DNA from: Frigidibacter albus
Lineage (GTDB): Bacteria; Pseudomonadota; Alphaproteobacteria; Rhodobacterales; Rhodobacteraceae
Assembly (NCBI RefSeq): GCF_009908165.1
Contig: NZ_JAAAUC010000001.1
Coordinates: 1-64,000 of the forward strand
Reading direction: 5' to 3'
DNA: 64,000 bases
The position numbers and the translations under genes were made by a program. A model generated the notes under the pieces. That model made no database searches and was not told where the DNA came from. It worked only from the letters and a program-made list of their open reading frames with translations. This document shows positions 54,578 through 63,158 of the stretch, one piece after another (the first letter of the stretch is position 1; every line of letters starts with the position of its first letter).

Positions 54578-54777
54578 GGAATTCTCCTCCCCTCCGGCAG
54601 GCCGCCGGGTCATGCAAGAACCCGCAGGGCGGGCCTAAGCCCTTTTCGGGTTGGGGGGGGGCTGCTGCAACTGACCATTCAACATGCCGAGCCTGACAAT
54701 GCCTTTGCCAAGAGACCGTCCGACGATGTGCTGCGGCAAGCTGATGCGCGAACGCGCCACCCGGTTCTTCTGACAGG

Positions 54778-54848
54778 TGGCTTCCGTGGATGGATTCCCG
54801 CGAGGTGGATTCCGCAAAGTGGCTTCCGTGGATTCCGCGAAGGAATCC
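54778..54848. repeat. short tandem repeats (about 14-15 bp units) with terminal hairpin
   Basis: Units related to TGGCTTCCGTGGAT (54778-54791 and 54820-54833, 42 bases apart) alternate with TGGATTCCCGCGAGG- and TGGATTCCGCAAAG-like units. The last copy forms GGATTCC gcgaa GGAATCC, a perfect 7-bp hairpin (54830-54848). No gene covers this stretch; it is a minisatellite-like patch. The A/T-rich palindrome CAAATATTTG follows at 54871. Confidence 0.6.
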
Positions 54849-55014
54849 AGCGGCCAAGATCGTGTTTCCACAAATATTTGATAACAAGTCGATTTTTTGC
54901 CTGTCGCGGCTTGGTGTCCCAAGTGGAGTCCCCGGTGAAAGTGCCTGTCGCTAGCGAAATGCTTCGCTGCGCCCCGCATACGTTCGGGGCTGGGGAGGAG
55001 CCAGAGGAGGGGGC

Positions 55015-55239
55015 ATGTCAGGTTTCGGACCAGAAGCGTTGTCCAACCTCCAAGCGGAAATCGAACACCGGCAGTTCATGCCCCTCGCCGCACCTGTCTG
55101 GCAGGCATCGTCAGCTGCCGTGTTTCAGCCGCTTGGCGACGCAAGTGATCTAAGCCGAAGGCTGGCGACGCTCGCCTCCGCTTCGGCATTCGCGGACCAT
55201 TTACGCGTCCTTTACGCGCCCGAGGCCGATCCGACATAG
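55015..55239 (+). CDS. hypothetical 74-residue ORF upstream of kdp (doubtful)
   Basis: ATG 55015 has a very good ribosome binding site (GAGGAGGGGG), but the predicted protein (MSGFGPEALSNLQAEI...) matches nothing I know. Its last codons run through the phased repeats that look like KdpE sites. It may be a decayed gene or only fortuitously open. Confidence 0.3.
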   Translation: MSGFGPEALSNLQAEIEHRQFMPLAAPVWQASSAAVFQPLGDASDLSRRLATLASASAFADHLRVLYAPEADPT

Positions 55240-55254
55240 CGCCTTTACGCGTCC
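55200..55254 (+). promoter_or_regulatory. three phased 11-bp repeats, candidate KdpE binding sites
   Basis: TTTACGCGTCC at 55200-55210, TTTACGCGCCC at 55211-55221 and TTTACGCGTCC at 55244-55254 start 11 and then 33 bases apart, all on the same helical face. Direct repeats of this length suit OmpR/PhoB-class response regulators. They lie 40-90 bases before the first kdp ORF. Confidence 0.6.
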
Positions 55255-55293
55255 CGGCTCCAGTGTCGCGCCATCTGACATGAGGAGACTGCG

Positions 55294-55377
55294 ATGCTTG
55301 ATGTCCTTTACTTCGGCCTCGGCGCCGGGGGCTTTGCCCTCTTCGCCCTGGCGGTGCACCGCCTGGAGCGGATGTGA
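55294..55377 (+). CDS. small membrane protein at the head of the kdp operon
   Basis: A 27-residue ORF (MLDVLYFGLGAGGFALFALA then VHRLERM) forming one transmembrane helix with a basic C-terminus. GAGGA at 55282-55286 precedes the ATG at a good distance. It ends one base before kdpF. Similar tiny membrane ORFs ahead of kdpF are known to me from other bacterial kdp operons; the role is unproven. Confidence 0.65.
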   Translation: MLDVLYFGLGAGGFALFALAVHRLERM

Positions 55378-55378
55378 C

Positions 55379-55471
55379 ATGCCCCTGTTTGACCTGATCG
55401 TCGGGGCGGCGGTGGCCCTGGGCCTGTTCCTCTATCTCGGCGTGGCACTGCTGCGGCCGGGCCGGTTCTGA
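55379..55471 (+). CDS. kdpF: potassium-transporting ATPase subunit KdpF
   Basis: A 30-residue single-helix peptide ([20 protein letters not shown], then [10 protein letters not shown]) with the typical KdpF ending YLxxALLRPxRF. It stabilises the KdpABC complex in the inner membrane. Confidence 0.88.
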
Positions 55472-55482
55472 AGGGGCACAAG

Positions 55483-57150
55483 ATGACCATGCTTGCTTAT
55501 GCACTCTACTTTGCCGCACTCGTCGGCGCGGCCCTGGTGCTTGCCGCCTGGATGGCCCGTGTCTATTCCGGGATACCGGCGCTTGCGGGGATCGAGCGGC
55601 GCGTGCTGCGCGGCGCCGGCATCAATCCCGGCCGCGACATGGCGTGGGGAGCCTATGCCTTGGCAGTGCTGGCCTTCAACCTTGCTGGCTTTGCGCTGCT
55701 CTACGCGCTGTTGCGGGCGCAGGGGGCGCTGCCGCTGAACCCCGATGGCATCGGCGGCATGGCACCCGATCTGGCCTTCAACACCGCCGTCAGCTTCGTG
55801 ACCAACACCAACTGGCAGGCCTATTCGGGCGAGGCGCAGCTGTCCCACCTGGCGCAGATGGCCGGGCTGACGGTGCAGAACTTTGTCAGCGCGGGCACCG
55901 GGATGGCGGTGGCGGTCGCGGTGATCCGCGGGTTCACCGCGCCCAAGGGCACGACGCTTGGCAACTTCTGGGTGGACCTGACGCGCTCGGTCCTGTGGAT
56001 CTTGCTGCCACTGTCGGTGCTGCTCGCGCTGTTCCTCGCATGGCAGGGCGTGCCGCAGACCCTGCAGGGGGCGGTTACCGTCACGGGGATGGAAGGGGCG
56101 GAGCAGATCATCGCCCGCGGCCCCGCAGCGGCACAGATCGCCATCAAGCAGCTTGGCACCAATGGCGGCGGCTTCTTCGGCGTGAACTCGGCCCACCCGT
56201 TCGAGAACCCGACCATTGCCTCGAACCTGGCGCAGAGCCTGTCGCTCCTGCTGATCCCGGTCGCCTTCTGCTTCCTGTTCGGCCGCATGGCGGGTGACCG
56301 TCGGCAGGGCCTCGCGATATTCGCAGCAATGGCGGTGATGTTCGTCGTGGGTCTGGGCACCATTCACGCCTATGAAGTCGCGGGCAACCCGGCCCTGGGC
56401 CTGGGCGCCAACATGGAGGGCAAGGAGCAGCGCTTCGGCGCCATGCTGTCCGCACTCTGGGCGGCCTCGACCACCGCCGCCTCGAACGGATCGGTCAACG
56501 CCATGCATGACAGTTTCATGCCGCTGTCGGGGCTGGTGATGCTGCTTAACATGCAGATCGGCGAGGTGATCTTTGGCGGCGTGGGTGCCGGCTTCTACGG
56601 GATGCTGCTTTACGTCGTGCTGGCGGTGTTCCTGGCGGGGCTGATGGTCGGGCGCACGCCCGAATACCTTGGCCGCAAGGTCGAGGCGCGCGAGGTGACG
56701 TTGGCGGTTCTGGCCTTCCTGTCGATGCCGCTTGGCATTCTGGTGGGCGGCGCGGTGGCGGCGACCGTCCCTCAGGCGCTGGCGGCGGTGCAGGACGCAG
56801 GCCCGCATGGGCTGAGCGAGATCCTCTACGCCTACTCCTCCGCCACGGGCAACAACGGCTCGGCCTTCGGTGGATTTGGTGCGGCGCTGCCCTGGCACAC
56901 CACCGCGCTTGGGCTGGTCATGCTGCTGGGGCGCTATGCGATCATCGTGCCCATGCTGGCCATTGCCGGCTCGATGATCCGCAAGACCCGCGCCCCCGTG
57001 ACCGCGGGCACCTTCCCGACCCACGGCCCGCTGTTCGTGACCCTGCTGGTGCTGACCGTGCTGATCCTTGGCGCGCTCACCTTCTTTCCCGTCCTCGCCC
57101 TTGGCCCCATCGCGGAAGAAACCGCGCGGGTGGCCGGGCAGACCTTCTGA
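55483..57150 (+). CDS. kdpA: potassium-transporting ATPase subunit KdpA
   Basis: The 555-residue channel-like subunit that selects and takes up K+. All four selectivity-filter regions are present: [46 protein letters not shown] and [13 protein letters not shown]. Ten transmembrane helices are predicted. Length is normal. Confidence 0.97.
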
Positions 57151-57158
57151 GGCATCTC

Positions 57159-59195
57159 ATGGCAAATCCTGCGAAAATCGCCGACATGTCGGGGCTCTAT
57201 CCGGCCGCGATCCGGCAAAGCGTTGTCAAGCTTGATCCCCGGCAGCTGTGGCATAGCCCGGTGATGTTCGTCACGGCCGTCGTGGCGGTGATGACAACGC
57301 TTCTTGGCCTACGCGACTTGGTGTCGGGCACGGCGGGGGCAGGGATCGCGCTGCACATCGCCGTCTGGCTGTGGCTGTGCGTGCTGTTCGCCAACTTCGC
57401 CGAGGCGCTGGCCGAGGGCCGCGGCCGCGCCCGCGCTGACACGCTGCGCGCCACGAAATCGGAAACCCGGGTGCGGGTGCTGGCCGAACCTAACGACGCA
57501 CCGGCGACGGCGACCGATGTCGCCTCCACCGCCCTGCGCGCGGGCCAGTTCGTCTATCTGGCGGCGGGCGACATCATCCCGACGGATGGCGAAGCGGTGC
57601 GCGGCATCGCCTCGGTCAACGAAAGCGCCATTACGGGGGAAAGCGCCCCGGTGATCCGCGAGGCCGGGGGCGACCGATCTTCGGTCACTGGCGGCACCAC
57701 CATCGCATCGGACTGGATCGTGATGAAGGTCACGGCAGAGCCGGGCAAGAGCTTCCTCGACCGGATGATCGCACTGGTCGAAGGCGCCGAGCGGCAGAAG
57801 ACCCCGAATGAGATTGCTCTGAACATCCTGCTGGTCGGGCTGACGCTGATCTTCCTGTTCGTGGTCGTCACGCTCCCCGCCTTTGCCAGCTATTCGGGCA
57901 CCACCATTCCGGTCGTGGTCCTCGGGGCACTGTTCGTGACGCTGATCCCCACCACCATCGGCGGCCTGCTCAGCGCGATCGGCATCGCGGGGATGGACCG
58001 GCTTGTGAAGGCCAATGTCATCGCCAAGTCGGGCCGGGCGGTCGAGGCGGCGGGCGATGTCGATACGCTGCTGCTGGACAAGACCGGCACCATAACCTTC
58101 GGCAACCGCATGGCCGATGCGCTGGTCCCGGCGCCGGGTGTGGAGGCGCGGCGCCTCGCCGAGGCGGCGGCGCTGGCCTCTCTCGCCGACGAGACGCCTG
58201 AAGGGAAATCCATCGTCGAAAAGGCGCGCGAGATGCTGGGCAGCGTTCCTGCGATGCCCCAGGGCGCGACGCCGGTCGCCTTCACCGCGCAAACCCGGCT
58301 TTCGGGGCTGGATCTGAACGACGGGCGCAGCTTCCGCAAGGGTGCCATTGACGCGGTGATCCGGCTGACGGGCCAGACCCCGCCCGGCGCGCTGGCGGGG
58401 CAGGTCGACGCCATCGCCCGGTCCGGTGGCACGCCGCTGCTGGTGGCCGAGGGCACGCAGATCCTGGGCGTAGTGCATCTGAAGGACATCGTGAAACCCG
58501 GGGTGCGCGAGCGCTTTGCCGAGCTGCGCGCCATGGGCATCCGCACGGTGATGATCACCGGCGACAACCCCCTGACCGCCGCCGCCATTGCCGCCGAGGC
58601 GGGGGTGGACGACTTCCTCGCCGAAGCCACGCCCGAGATGAAGCTGGACCTTATCCGCCGCGAACAGGCGGGCGGGCGGCTGGTCGCCATGTGCGGCGAC
58701 GGGTCCAACGACGCACCCGCGCTGGCGCAGGCCGATGTGGGGGTGGCGATGAACGCCGGCACCCCGGCGGCGAAAGAGGCCGCGAACCTGATCGACCTCG
58801 ACAGCGACCCGACCAAGCTGATCGAGGTGGTGATGGTGGGCAAGCAATTGCTGATCAGCCGCGGCGCGCTGACCACCTTCAGCATCGCCAATGACGTGGC
58901 GAAATACTTCGCCGTGCTGCCCGCGATCTTTGTCGCGGCCTATCCGGGGCTGGCGGTGCTGAACATCATGGGTCTCGCCTCGCCCACCTCTGCCATCCTG
59001 TCGGCGGTGATCTTCAACGCGCTGGTGCTGATCGCGCTGGTGCCGCTGGCCCTGCGCGGGGTGGCCTATCGCCCCGCCAGCGCCGCCCAACTGCTGCGCC
59101 GCAACCTGCTTGTCTACGGGTTGGGCGGGCTGATCGTGCCCTTTGTCGGGATCAAGGCCATCGACCTGTGCCTTGTCGCCCTGAACCTGGCCTGA
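57159..59195 (+). CDS. kdpB: potassium-transporting ATPase ATP-binding subunit KdpB
   Basis: The 678-residue P-type ATPase subunit: [13 protein letters not shown] (actuator TGES), [11 protein letters not shown] (phosphorylated Asp), [29 protein letters not shown] and [23 protein letters not shown]. It energises K+ uptake. Eight bases after kdpA. Confidence 0.97.
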
Positions 59196-59206
59196 AAGGA
59201 CATCCC

Positions 59207-59800
59207 ATGCTGACCCATCTTCGCCCCGCCATCACCCTGATGCTTGGCTTCACGCTGCTGACCGGGCTGGCCTACCCGCTGGCCATGACCGGCCTTGCCC
59301 AGACCCTGTTTCCCGCCGCAGCCGACGGCAGCCTGATCACGCAAGGCGACAGGGTGATCGGCTCCGGCCTTGTGGCGCAGCCTTTCGCCGAAGCGGCCTA
59401 TCTTCACCCGCGCCCCTCTGCCAGCGACTGGAACGCAGCCGGCACCGGGGCATCGAACCTCGGGCCAACCTCGGCGCTTCTGGTCGCCACCGTCGCCGAA
59501 CGCCGCGCCGCGTGGGAGGCGGAGAATGGTGCGGCCGCCGCCATCGACGCCGTCACGGCCTCGGGCTCCGGGCTTGATCCGCATGTCAGCCCGCAAACCG
59601 CGCTGGCGCAGGCGGACCGCATCGCCGCGGCGCGGGGGGCCGACCCCGCCGCCGTGCGCGCGCTGATCGCGGGCCGGGTCGAGGGGCGCGCCCTCTGGCT
59701 TTATGGTGAGCCGCGGGTGAATGTGCTGCAGGCGAACCTCGCCCTTGATGAAGGCTTTCCGATGCCGATGCCCCGCACAGATGACACCGCAGCCGAATGA
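59207..59800 (+). CDS. kdpC: potassium-transporting ATPase subunit KdpC
   Basis: A 197-residue subunit with one N-terminal membrane helix and the KdpC features VIGSGLVAQPFAEAAYLHPRPSA and SGSGLDPHVSPQTALAQADRIA. ATG 59207 after AAAGGA. It overlaps kdpD by ATGA. Confidence 0.95.
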   Translation: MLTHLRPAITLMLGFTLLTGLAYPLAMTGLAQTLFPAAADGSLITQGDRVIGSGLVAQPFAEAAYLHPRPSASDWNAAGTGASNLGPTSALLVATVAERRAAWEAENGAAAAIDAVTASGSGLDPHVSPQTALAQADRIAAARGADPAAVRALIAGRVEGRALWLYGEPRVNVLQANLALDEGFPMPMPRTDDTAAE

Positions 59801-62478
59801 CACCTGATGCCGCCCTTCGCCCCTCGCCGGACGCGCTGCTGGCCCATGCCGCGCGCGAGGGGCGGGGGCGGCTGAAGATCTTCATCGGGGCGGCGCCCGG
59901 GGTCGGCAAGACCTGGGCGATGCTGGACGATGCGCACCGCAGGCGCGCCGAGGGCGTGGATGTGCTTGCCGCCCTGATCGAAACCCACGGCAGGGCCGAG
60001 ACGCAGGCGAAGCTGGCGGGTCTGCCGCAGCTGCCGCGCAAGCCGGTGATCTACAAGGGCCGCGCGCTGACCGAGATGGATCTGGACGGCCTTCTGGCCC
60101 GCCGCCCGGCGCTGGCGCTGATCGACGAGCTGGCCCACACCAATGCCGACACCGGGCGACACGAAAAACGCTGGCAGGATGTCGAGGAGGTGCTGGCGGC
60201 GGGCATCGACGTGTTCACCACGCTGAACGTCCAGCATATCGAGACCCTGAACGAGACCGTCGCCCGCATCACCGGCGTCAGGGTGCGCGAGACCGTGCCC
60301 GACCGCGTGCTGGAAATGGCCGACGAGATCGAGCTGATCGACCTGCCGCCCGATGACCTGATGGCGCGCCTGAAGCAGGGAAAGATCTACCCGCAGGATC
60401 AGGCAGCCCGGGCGCTGACATCGTTCTTCGCCAAGGGAAACCTGACCGCCTTGCGCGAACTGGCGCTGCGCGCCGCCGCCGACCGGGTGGACGCGCAACT
60501 GCGCGAGCATATGGCGGCAAATGCAATCGCGGGGCCGTGGCCCGCGCAGGAACGCATCCTCGTGTGCATCAACGAAAGCCCCGCGGCGCGCGAGGCGATC
60601 CGCGTCGCCAAGCGTTCTGCCGAGCGGGCGCGGGCGGAATGGATCGCGCTGAACGTCACCCAGGCGCGGATGGAAACGCTGCCCGAGGCAGAGAAGGACC
60701 GGCTGGCAGGCACCCTGCGGCTGGCCGAACGGCTGGGCGCGGAACTCGCCACCCTGGAGGCAGAACGCGACGTGGCGCAGGCGATCCTGTCCTATGCCGC
60801 GGATCGGAACGTGCGGCGCATCGTCATCGGCCGTCCGCGCCCACGGCCGTTCTGGGCCCGTCTGACCACCGAGGATGTGGCCGCCCACCTGCTGCGCCTG
60901 TCGGGCCGTTTCGAAATCACAGTGGCGGCGCAACCCGATGAACCCGCCGCGAGGCCCGGCTGGCATCTGCCGCAGCTTGGAACGGAGCCCCGTGCCTGGG
61001 GCGAGGCGGCACTGGCCGTAGCCCTGGCGTCGGCCTGCGCCTTTGCAGCAGAGCGGTTGTTCCCGGTGGCCAGCCTGTCGGTGATCTACATGACGGCGGT
61101 CGTGGTGGTGGCCAGCCGCCGCGGGATTGCGCCAGCCATCGGGGCGGCGGTGATCGGCTTTCTGGCCTACAACTTCCTGTTCACGCATCCCCGCTACACC
61201 TTTCACGTCTCGCGTCAGGGCGAATTGCTGACGCTTGGCCTGTTTCTGGCGGCATCGCTGATCACGGGCAATCTTGCCGCGCGGTTGCGCGCGCGGGTTG
61301 ACGCACAGGCCACCATCGCCGACCGTACCAACAAGCTTTACGACTTCAGCCGGCGCGTTGCCGCTGCGGCCACGGCGGATGATGTGATCTGGGCCTCGGT
61401 CAGCCACGTCGCCACGACCTTGCGGTGCGAAGCCGTTCTCCTGAAGCCCTCGCCTGCGGGTGAGTTGCAGGTTGTGGGGGGCTTTCCGCCCGAGGACCGG
61501 CTGGATGTCCGCGACCAGTCCGCCGCCCAGTTCTCGTGGGACAAGGGCGAAGTTGCAGGGCGCGGTTCCGACACTCTGCCGACGGCGCGCTGGTTCTTCC
61601 TGCCGCTGACCGCGGGCGAGCGGCGGCTCGGCGTGCTTGGCATCGCCTACACGGATGACCGCCATTTTGCCCGCACCGACCGGCGGCTGCTGGACGCGCT
61701 GGTGGATCAGATCGCCCTTGCGCTGGAACGCCTGCGCCTCACCGAAGAGCTGTCCGAAACCCGGCTGGCCTCGGAAACCGACCGGCTGCGCACGGCCCTG
61801 CTGTCGTCGGTCAGCCATGACCTGCGCACACCGCTGGTGACGATCATCGGCGCGGCGGGAAGCCTGGCCCATGCCCCCGACCTGCCGGCCGGGGCGCGGC
61901 AGGATCTGGCCGAGAATATCCGCGAGGAGGGGGAGCGCCTGGACCGCTATGTGCAGAACCTGCTGGACATGACGCGGCTGGGGCATGGCGCGCTCAAGCC
62001 GCGAGTGGGACCGGTGGACGTGGCCGAACTGGTCGGCACCGCGCGTCACCGCCTGCGCGCGCCGTTGCGGGGGCATGTTCTGGAAACCGATGTGCCGGAT
62101 CTGCTGCCGCTGGTGCTGGCCGACGGGATGCTGCTGGAACAGGTGCTGGTCAACGTGCTGGACAACGCCGCGAAATATGCGCCCATCGGGTCGGCGATCT
62201 CCATTGCCGCGCGCAGGGTGGCTGCGCAGGTGGAGCTGTCGGTCGCCGATACCGGCCCCGGCATCCCGCCCGATGAACGGGCCCGCGTGTTCGACATGTT
62301 CTACCGCGTGAGCGAAGGCGACCGGCAGCGCGCCGGGACCGGCCTGGGGCTGGCGATCTGCAAGGGGCTGATCGAGGCGATGGGCGGCACCATCCGCGCC
62401 GAGTCGGCATCGCCGGACGGCAGCGGGACGCGTATGGTGATCGGCATACCGATCTTCAGTCCTGAGGCCCCCGCATGA
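59797..62478 (+). CDS. kdpD: potassium sensor histidine kinase KdpD
   Basis: An 893-residue sensor: N-terminal KdpD domain with Walker-type FIGAAPGVGKTWAML (about 25-40), a USP-like domain (residues 245-370), four membrane helices with DUF4118 (about 395-500), a GAF-like region and a HisKA/HATPase pair: SSVSHDLRTPL with the phospho-His, NVLDNAAKYAP, DTGPGIP and GTGLGLAI. It senses low K+ or osmotic state and phosphorylates KdpE. Confidence 0.96.
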   Translation: MTPDAALRPSPDALLAHAAREGRGRLKIFIGAAPGVGKTWAMLDDAHRRRAEGVDVLAALIETHGRAETQAKLAGLPQLPRKPVIYKGRALTEMDLDGLLARRPALALIDELAHTNADTGRHEKRWQDVEEVLAAGIDVFTTLNVQHIETLNETVARITGVRVRETVPDRVLEMADEIELIDLPPDDLMARLKQGKIYPQDQAARALTSFFAKGNLTALRELALRAAADRVDAQLREHMAANAIAGPWPAQERILVCINESPAAREAIRVAKRSAERARAEWIALNVTQARMETLPEAEKDRLAGTLRLAERLGAELATLEAERDVAQAILSYAADRNVRRIVIGRPRPRPFWARLTTEDVAAHLLRLSGRFEITVAAQPDEPAARPGWHLPQLGTEPRAWGEAALAVALASACAFAAERLFPVASLSVIYMTAVVVVASRRGIAPAIGAAVIGFLAYNFLFTHPRYTFHVSRQGELLTLGLFLAASLITGNLAARLRARVDAQATIADRTNKLYDFSRRVAAAATADDVIWASVSHVATTLRCEAVLLKPSPAGELQVVGGFPPEDRLDVRDQSAAQFSWDKGEVAGRGSDTLPTARWFFLPLTAGERRLGVLGIAYTDDRHFARTDRRLLDALVDQIALALERLRLTEELSETRLASETDRLRTALLSSVSHDLRTPLVTIIGAAGSLAHAPDLPAGARQDLAENIREEGERLDRYVQNLLDMTRLGHGALKPRVGPVDVAELVGTARHRLRAPLRGHVLETDVPDLLPLVLADGMLLEQVLVNVLDNAAKYAPIGSAISIAARRVAAQVELSVADTGPGIPPDERARVFDMFYRVSEGDRQRAGTGLGLAICKGLIEAMGGTIRAESASPDGSGTRMVIGIPIFSPEAPA

Positions 62479-63158
62479 CCGACCCGACGCGCATCCTGGT
62501 GATCGACGACGAGGCCCCGATCCGCCGCTTTCTGCGTGTGCCGCTGGAGGCCGAGGGCCATGCCGTGATCGAGGCCGCGACCGCGCGCGAGGGCATCCTT
62601 GCCGCCGCGCGAGAAACGCCCGGGCTGATCATCCTCGACCTTGGCCTGCCCGATGCCGACGGCCTGACCGTCCTGCGCGAGGTTCGGACCTGGAGCAAAG
62701 TTCCCGTCTTGGTGTTGTCGGTGCGCGCGGATGAGGCGGGCAAGGTGGCTGCCCTGGATGCCGGGGCGCAGGATTATGTCGTCAAGCCGTTCGGGATCAA
62801 GGAGCTTCTGGCCCGCATCCGCGGCGTGCTGCGCGACAGGGGCGGACCCGCGTCGCCGACGGTGCTGGAGATCGCCGATCTGCGGATCGACCCTGCCAAC
62901 CATACCGTCACCAAGGCCGGCGGCGCCCTTCACCTGACCCGCCGCGAGTTCGATCTGTTGTGGCTGCTTGCCAGCAACGCGGGCCGCCTGGTCACCCAGG
63001 CCATGATCCTCAAGACGCTCTGGGGCCCGGCGCATGCCGAGGACAGCCAGTATCTGCGCGTCTATGTGCGCCAGTTGCGCCAGAAGCTGGGCGATGACGC
63101 CGCCAACCCCCGCTTCATCATGACCGAGCCAGGGATCGGCTATCGGTTCGTGGGGTAG
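62475..63158 (+). CDS. kdpE: response regulator KdpE
   Basis: A 227-residue OmpR-class regulator: receiver domain with ILVIDDEAPIRRFL, the phospho-acceptor Asp in LIILDLGLPDADG, and KPFGIKELLARI, then a winged helix (LTRREFDLLWLLASNAGRLVTQAMIL to the C-terminus). It should activate the kdp operon, probably through the repeats at 55200-55254. Overlaps kdpD. Confidence 0.96.
   Translation: MTDPTRILVIDDEAPIRRFLRVPLEAEGHAVIEAATAREGILAAARETPGLIILDLGLPDADGLTVLREVRTWSKVPVLVLSVRADEAGKVAALDAGAQDYVVKPFGIKELLARIRGVLRDRGGPASPTVLEIADLRIDPANHTVTKAGGALHLTRREFDLLWLLASNAGRLVTQAMILKTLWGPAHAEDSQYLRVYVRQLRQKLGDDAANPRFIMTEPGIGYRFVG

Follow-up and report, generated by a model that had tools for sequence, protein, structure and literature searches.

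A conserved third repeat next to the promoter accompanies the putative KdpE box upstream of kdpFABC

The window analysed here, a stretch of 64,000 nucleotides, carries a kdp operon on its forward strand, in which a 27-aa small ORF is followed by kdpF, kdpA, kdpB, kdpC, kdpD and kdpE, all reading in one direction. kdpF (55379–55471) was assigned from TIGR02115 (30.7 bits) and PF09604 (31.7 bits), kdpA (55483–57150) from TIGR00680, kdpB (57159–59195) from TIGR01497 and kdpC (59168–59800) from TIGR00681. The sensor kinase gene kdpD (59797–62478) encodes PF02702, HisKA and HATPase_c, and the response regulator gene kdpE (62475–63158) combines PF00072 with PF00486; the latter was named by best match and context, its product scoring 252.8 bits, under the NCBIfam KdpE cut-off of 325 bits. 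The small hydrophobic ORF (MLDVLYFGLGAGGFALFALAVHRLERM, 55294–55377), preceded by AGGAG as its likely ribosome-binding site (55283–55287), is the probable first gene of the operon, with similar ORFs in other kdp loci. It gave no match to an NCBIfam or Pfam family, and its product is possibly an undescribed Kdp-associated membrane peptide. Many loci of the window's class have hydrophobic ORFs of 26–28 aa before kdpA (seen by pattern and eye, uncounted), as do a few other named loci (L069, L071 and L073); these ORFs often end in -CERL, -ERM or -DRL. Among 120 genomes of the window's family, KdpA was detected in nine, the window included, and its closest named relatives among the matches listed were from Methylobrevis (85–86% identity). 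This patchy occurrence and the likeness to Methylobrevis may reflect patchy loss or horizontal transfer.

Just before kdp lie three direct repeats, with the spacing that a sequence-only reading of this DNA had reported: R1 (TTTACGCGTCC, 55200–55210), R2 (TTTACGCGCCC, 55211–55221) and R3, again TTTACGCGTCC, at 55244–55254, the starts being 11 bp (R1 to R2) and 33 bp (R2 to R3) apart. Each begins with TTTACGC (55200–55206, 55211–55217 and 55244–55250, all on the forward strand). The placing of all three on one face of the DNA, also proposed there, holds at about 11 bp per turn; at 10.5 bp, R3 comes to lie about 1.5 bp out of phase with R2. The pattern TTTACGCG occurs three times in the window, both strands counted, against an expectation of 0.57, and all three copies are R1, R2 and R3; at least three copies anywhere arose in 2 of 100 shuffles of the whole window. 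Over the 4.19-Mb genome TTTACGCGNCC has five copies, three of them in the kdp array. Since its reversed control pattern has nine, the word itself is not rare genome-wide, whereas its clustering is. When the paired box TTTAYGNNNNCYTTAYGC was searched with at most one mismatch, the kdp site was its single genome match (the reversed control gave one forward and one reverse match). No second KdpE-type box was found elsewhere in the genome with this one pattern at up to one mismatch, so kdp may be the sole KdpE target there.

The pair formed by R1 and R2 is conserved upstream of kdpA in other genomes. A weight matrix was fitted to the 11-bp-spaced pair in a training set of 90 kdpA upstream regions, comprising the best 80 named genome loci of our scan, nine genomes of the window's family (the window itself among them) and E. 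coli K-12. Pair scores of at least 9.5 bits were obtained for 82 of the 90, a figure that is not independent evidence since the matrix was fitted on those loci. The matrix was applied unchanged to 148 held-out kdpA upstream regions from class and phylum searches, which do give an independent figure, a sample without the weakest or fragmentary matches and many lower-ranked ones; 135 scored at least 9.5 bits and 131 at least 12.3 bits, with 13 falling under 9.5. The lower threshold is the 95th percentile of 270 control windows drawn from further downstream in the training loci (maximum 16.9), and the higher one is that for the reverse strand of the kdpA upstream regions (maximum 21.3). Alignment of kdp upstream regions, the check named in the sequence-only reading, bears out the conservation of the repeats. 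In nine chosen relatives with a clear box (L006, L093, L094 and L095 stand outside this comparison), the repeat columns are 86–95% identical to the window, while identity drops to 12–40% in the 60 nt upstream of the repeats, and is 25–54% in the gap between R2 and R3 and 26–57% in the stretch after R3.

The consensus of the pair is approximately TTTAYGC-N4-TTTAYGC, a TTTAYG pair at an 11-bp period. In E. coli, the KdpE-binding half-sites of kdpFABC-BS are S1 (TTTATA) and S2 (TTTACA), with 5 bp between them (PMC3264566). The window resembles this site in its 11-bp direct repeat, its TTTAY core, its place upstream of kdpF and a KdpE that carries R193 and R200. The earlier proposal that the site departs from that of E. 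coli finds no support in this comparison, period and core being the same (TTTATA-N5-TTTACA; PMC3264566). Nor does the proposal of an alphaproteobacterial KdpE code: the box also occurs in named Pseudomonas, E. coli and planctomycete loci of the training set, and 46 of the 48 held-out loci outside the window's class, a label taken from the kinship column of the search listing, score at least 9.5 bits. A class-specific code was rejected on these grounds; since the consensus matches the E. coli half-sites and the box occurs outside the class, the code is a shared one. The regulator was named rightly in kind, with a conserved box and a linked KdpE, and it is the claimed novelty of a different code that falls.

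Of the 80 named loci (the best 80 of the scan), 69 gave a KdpE match, some of them weak or partial (L014, L056). In seven of the 11 loci without a match, the sequence stops within 6 kb past the start of the kdpA match, before the usual place of kdpE is reached; two of the other four have no box (L038 and L069) and two have one (L031 and L068). Five loci with a KdpE match show no box at 9.5 bits (L015, L024, L050, L071 and L073). Box and KdpE are not always found together, and this counts against our best explanation. R193 and R200 are invariant in all 69 aligned KdpE sequences, those of the window and E. coli included, and the window protein carries all four recognition residues, Y191, R193, R200 and T215. 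In E. coli KdpE, R193, R200 and T215 matter for DNA binding (PMC3264566). Because the repeats are conserved and KdpE with its recognition residues is linked to them, a KdpE site is very likely at this locus. Judged from the sequences, R1–R2 is very probably the KdpE box, R1 being its putative upstream half-site (from the matrix pair in training and held-out kdpA upstream regions) and R2 its putative downstream half-site, 11 bp after R1 (from the S1/S2 spacing in E. coli; PMC3264566).

As of 2017, KdpE sites were known from four species (PMC5401905). The site in Mycobacterium smegmatis is a 22-bp A-rich motif at a SigF-type promoter, described as dissimilar in sequence to other KdpE sites; it shares with the window a place upstream of kdpF (PMC5401905). 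For Sinorhizobium fredii, binding of KdpE to the kdp promoter was shown by EMSA, and the available passages name no site (PMC9239096), and in Caulobacter the low-K+ promoter is described as still to be identified (PMC8552747). In the accessible parts of an E. coli ChIP-exo study no KdpE motif is given (PMC7657598), and the main text of PMC8041468, as far as available, is without KdpE, a motif in its tables or supplements being possible. A model for E. coli lets two KdpE~P bind the promoter site (PMC3938482). We found no described second or third KdpE site in titles, abstracts and open-licence full-text passages.

The sequence-only reading had treated the repeats as a single array. The three copies are real, but they are not uniform: R1–R2 is a known kind of box, and R3 stands apart as a conserved element of its own. 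The best further half-site was sought between R2+8 and R2+76 in the 114 non-redundant held-out promoters with a pair of at least 12.3 bits. It lay at R2+32 to +34 in 78 of them, and exactly at +33 in 61; with the downstream part shuffled 200 times, the number at +32 to +34 averaged 4.7 and never exceeded 11. Removal of loci sharing 75% or more identity with any training locus left 70 of 105 at this position, which split into 53 of 70 in the window's class and 17 of 35 outside it; that only 17 of 35 outside the class have it counts against our best explanation. On this held-out position test, we regard the window's R3, 33 bp after R2, as a candidate promoter-proximal KdpE half-site.

A clear R3 is present in 111 of 163 non-redundant promoters, and these form the basis of the context counts. 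In 84 of the 111, a T at R3−7 is combined with a G at R3−5 (TNG), a combination that reaches at most 15 at other offsets from −20 to −1. Hexamers resembling a −10 (at least three of six matches to TATAAT) peak at R3+16 (20 loci) and R3+17 (37 loci). R3 thereby lies between the −35 and −10 positions, with 10–11 nt from its end to the −10. In the window, the conserved T and G mark a −35-like hexamer, TAGCGC (55237–55242), and a −10-like hexamer, CAGTGT (55261–55266), is placed by its position 17 bp after the start of R3, both on the forward strand. CAGTGT is a predicted −10 with two of six matches (A2 and T6), below the threshold of three used in the count, and the weakness of the window's own −10 counts against our best explanation. 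That R3 is itself the −35 was rejected, because the spacer to the conserved −10 would be just 10–11 bp.

At 55233 the window reads GACATAGCGCC, without TTTAY, and so has no proximal half-site paired with R3 at 11 bp. Pairs of TTT-starting hexamers spaced by 11 bp at R2+21/+32 were found in 13 loci, namely E. coli, a group of 11 loci that belong to one family and have E. coli-like promoters (a likeness judged by sequence) and L182, a locus of the window's class with TTTACA-N5-TTTATA. Where the window has a clear third phased copy at R2+33, E. coli has TTTGCG-N5-TTTGCA, which the available passages of PMC3264566 do not call a KdpE site. In the E. coli K-12 locus (L096, reverse strand, 7889–7873), TTTGCG-AAATC-TTTGCA stands at the place that R3 takes elsewhere, about where a −35 is expected.

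The position of R3 has parallels among relatives of KdpE. In the E. coli phoA sequence the second TGTCAC begins 16 nt ahead of TATAGT; we take the TGTCAC repeats to be the Pho box (PhoB, class II promoter) and TATAGT to be the −10. R3 would resemble the downstream half-site of that box in that −10-like hexamers peak 16–17 nt after its start across the 111 loci, whereas the kdp promoters add a full upstream box and are mostly without a recognizable second proximal half-site. In Salmonella, the PhoP boxes of architecture I are found 11–12 nt ahead of the −10, and promoters of architecture II have a further box, in most cases upstream (PMC3335776). The kdp promoters would be like the latter in having two sites for one OmpR-family regulator, one of them about 12 nt before the −10, and unlike it in that the PhoP boxes are complete pairs while the proximal kdp site is mostly a single half-site with TNG. 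Because the phoA and PhoP spacings to the −10 match, R3 stands at the place of the downstream half-site of activators of this family. Within this regulator family, ArcA sites with three direct repeats exist, and they share with kdp an odd number of half-sites, direct orientation and helical spacing (PMC3798270). The extra ArcA repeats are mostly about 11 or 22 bp away, with no conserved promoter position (PMC3798270), in contrast to the window's extra repeat, which is 33 bp away and locked to the promoter.

Whether KdpE reads R3 was approached through covariation, in loci scoring at least 12.3 bits alone (210 of 238 for the permutation and close-pair tests, 79 of the 90 training loci for the Mantel test). 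The R3 register (32–34) was chosen to place an A in column four; the 158 of 163 loci having R3 'with A' therefore carry no evidential weight. In the 158 non-redundant loci, agreement between R3 and R1/R2 over columns 1–3 was 0.768, compared with 0.661 for global and 0.684 for GC-matched permutation (0/2000 in each case). Corrected for KdpA distance and GC, the letters of R3 were correlated with those of R1/R2 over the 79 loci (partial Mantel 0.247, 0/2000), as were those of R1 with R2 (0.276), against −0.041 for the block after R3; without L039 these values are 0.25, 0.279 and −0.038. Some phylogenetic signal remains in this test, since the unconserved gap block is also weakly correlated with R1/R2 (0.097, 3/2000 permutations). 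Comparison of 39 close pairs gave four parallel and seven antiparallel changes in the same column of R3 and R1/R2, as against five and one for R1 and R2 and three and six for mismatched columns; with four versus seven, linked recent change in R3 and R1/R2 was not seen in these pairs. Two further observations count against reading of R3 by KdpE, namely TTGA or CTGA at R3 in 18 of 105 loci of TTTA/CTTA type, and the E. coli R3, TTTGCA, in which a G replaces the otherwise nearly invariant A. The 11-bp-spaced TTT pairs at R2+21/+32 in 13 loci speak for it. Weighing these comparisons, we consider contact of KdpE with R3 somewhat probable.

Overall, we propose that the three repeats would be the operator part of a KdpE-activated kdp promoter. 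Phosphorylated KdpE would occupy R1–R2 (TTTACGC-N4-TTTACGC, 11-bp period) as a head-to-tail dimer, and a further KdpE subunit would read R3, which lies on the same face three turns of the helix further downstream. Bound there, next to a weak −35 (TNG) and with 11 nt to the −10, it would recruit σ70 RNA polymerase as the downstream half-sites of PhoB and PhoP boxes do. We assign a probability of about 0.6 to this reading, a KdpE dimer on R1–R2 with an R3 half-site that recruits RNA polymerase. We observe directly the repeats, with their constant spacing and conservation, and their fixed −35/−10 context. Binding of KdpE to sites of the R1–R2 type is known from prior work in E. coli, and we infer that R3 is contacted by KdpE and required for activation.

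R1–R2 might be the KdpE box and R3 a core-promoter element read by RNA polymerase (an extended or degenerate −35 or a spacer contact), its likeness to R1/R2 going no further than a shared TTTA-like sequence. Its rigid placement relative to the −10 and TNG would suit such an element, as would the lack of linked change in the close-pair test and the CTGACC or TTGACC found at R3 in Rhizobium, Shinella and Ensifer loci, which are like σ70 −35 words. However, 10–11 bp to the −10 is too short for a −35, whose place is already filled by TNG; the letters of R3 track those of R1/R2, and the proximal element is an 11-bp pair in some loci. We hold the core-promoter explanation to be rather unlikely. A point against recruitment is that a KdpE subunit inside the −35/−10 spacer could also hinder polymerase. 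R3 might be a negative KdpE half-site that fills the spacer at high KdpE~P and limits over-expression. Its position within the polymerase-covered spacer would allow this, and PhoP is able both to activate and to repress from different sites of one promoter (PMC3335776), but a directly oriented PhoP box at such a position is the required activating one (PMC3335776), and the conserved position of R3 fits that activating geometry. A negative role appears improbable. That the repeats arose by chance or composition, with no regulatory role, is hardly credible: the motif is short, three TTTACGCG copies appear in those 2 of 100 window shuffles and the word is not enriched genome-wide over its reversed control (5 versus 9), yet the three copies lie in phase within 55 bp upstream of an operon with kdpDE, and their spacing and sequence are conserved across held-out genomes, by which this explanation was already disfavoured.

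The new part is R3, a widely conserved third repeat by the RNA polymerase site that may be undescribed, and it is the part that deserves specialist attention. KdpDE is a textbook two-component system; the KdpE footprint in E. coli is cited as −72 to −50 only (PMC3264566), a point against our best explanation, and the available passages of PMC3264566 do not state how KdpE bound there activates polymerase. A conserved proximal element would be a simple, testable answer to that question. We put at even odds the broader proposition that kdp promoters throughout Pseudomonadota contain an overlooked third, promoter-proximal KdpE element at the −35 (R3, or a pair where the promoter is of E. coli type), that KdpE would activate in class II fashion from two sites in phase and that the one-site E. 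coli model would be incomplete. With such an element, the odd-numbered, three-repeat architecture of ArcA would extend to a second regulator, and the promoter signature R1-11-R2-33-R3-17-(−10) could be used to find KdpE targets in unstudied bacteria.

Two arrangements around kdp promoters were observed alongside. In the Roseomonas loci L078 and L075, the KdpD and KdpE matches are on the reverse strand upstream of kdpA and point away from it, and the KdpE box before kdpA might serve both directions. In the window, imperfect GTGGATTCC / GTGGCTTCCGTGGAT repeats were seen by eye at 54775–54850, between a divergent CoA-ligase-like gene and the kdp promoter.
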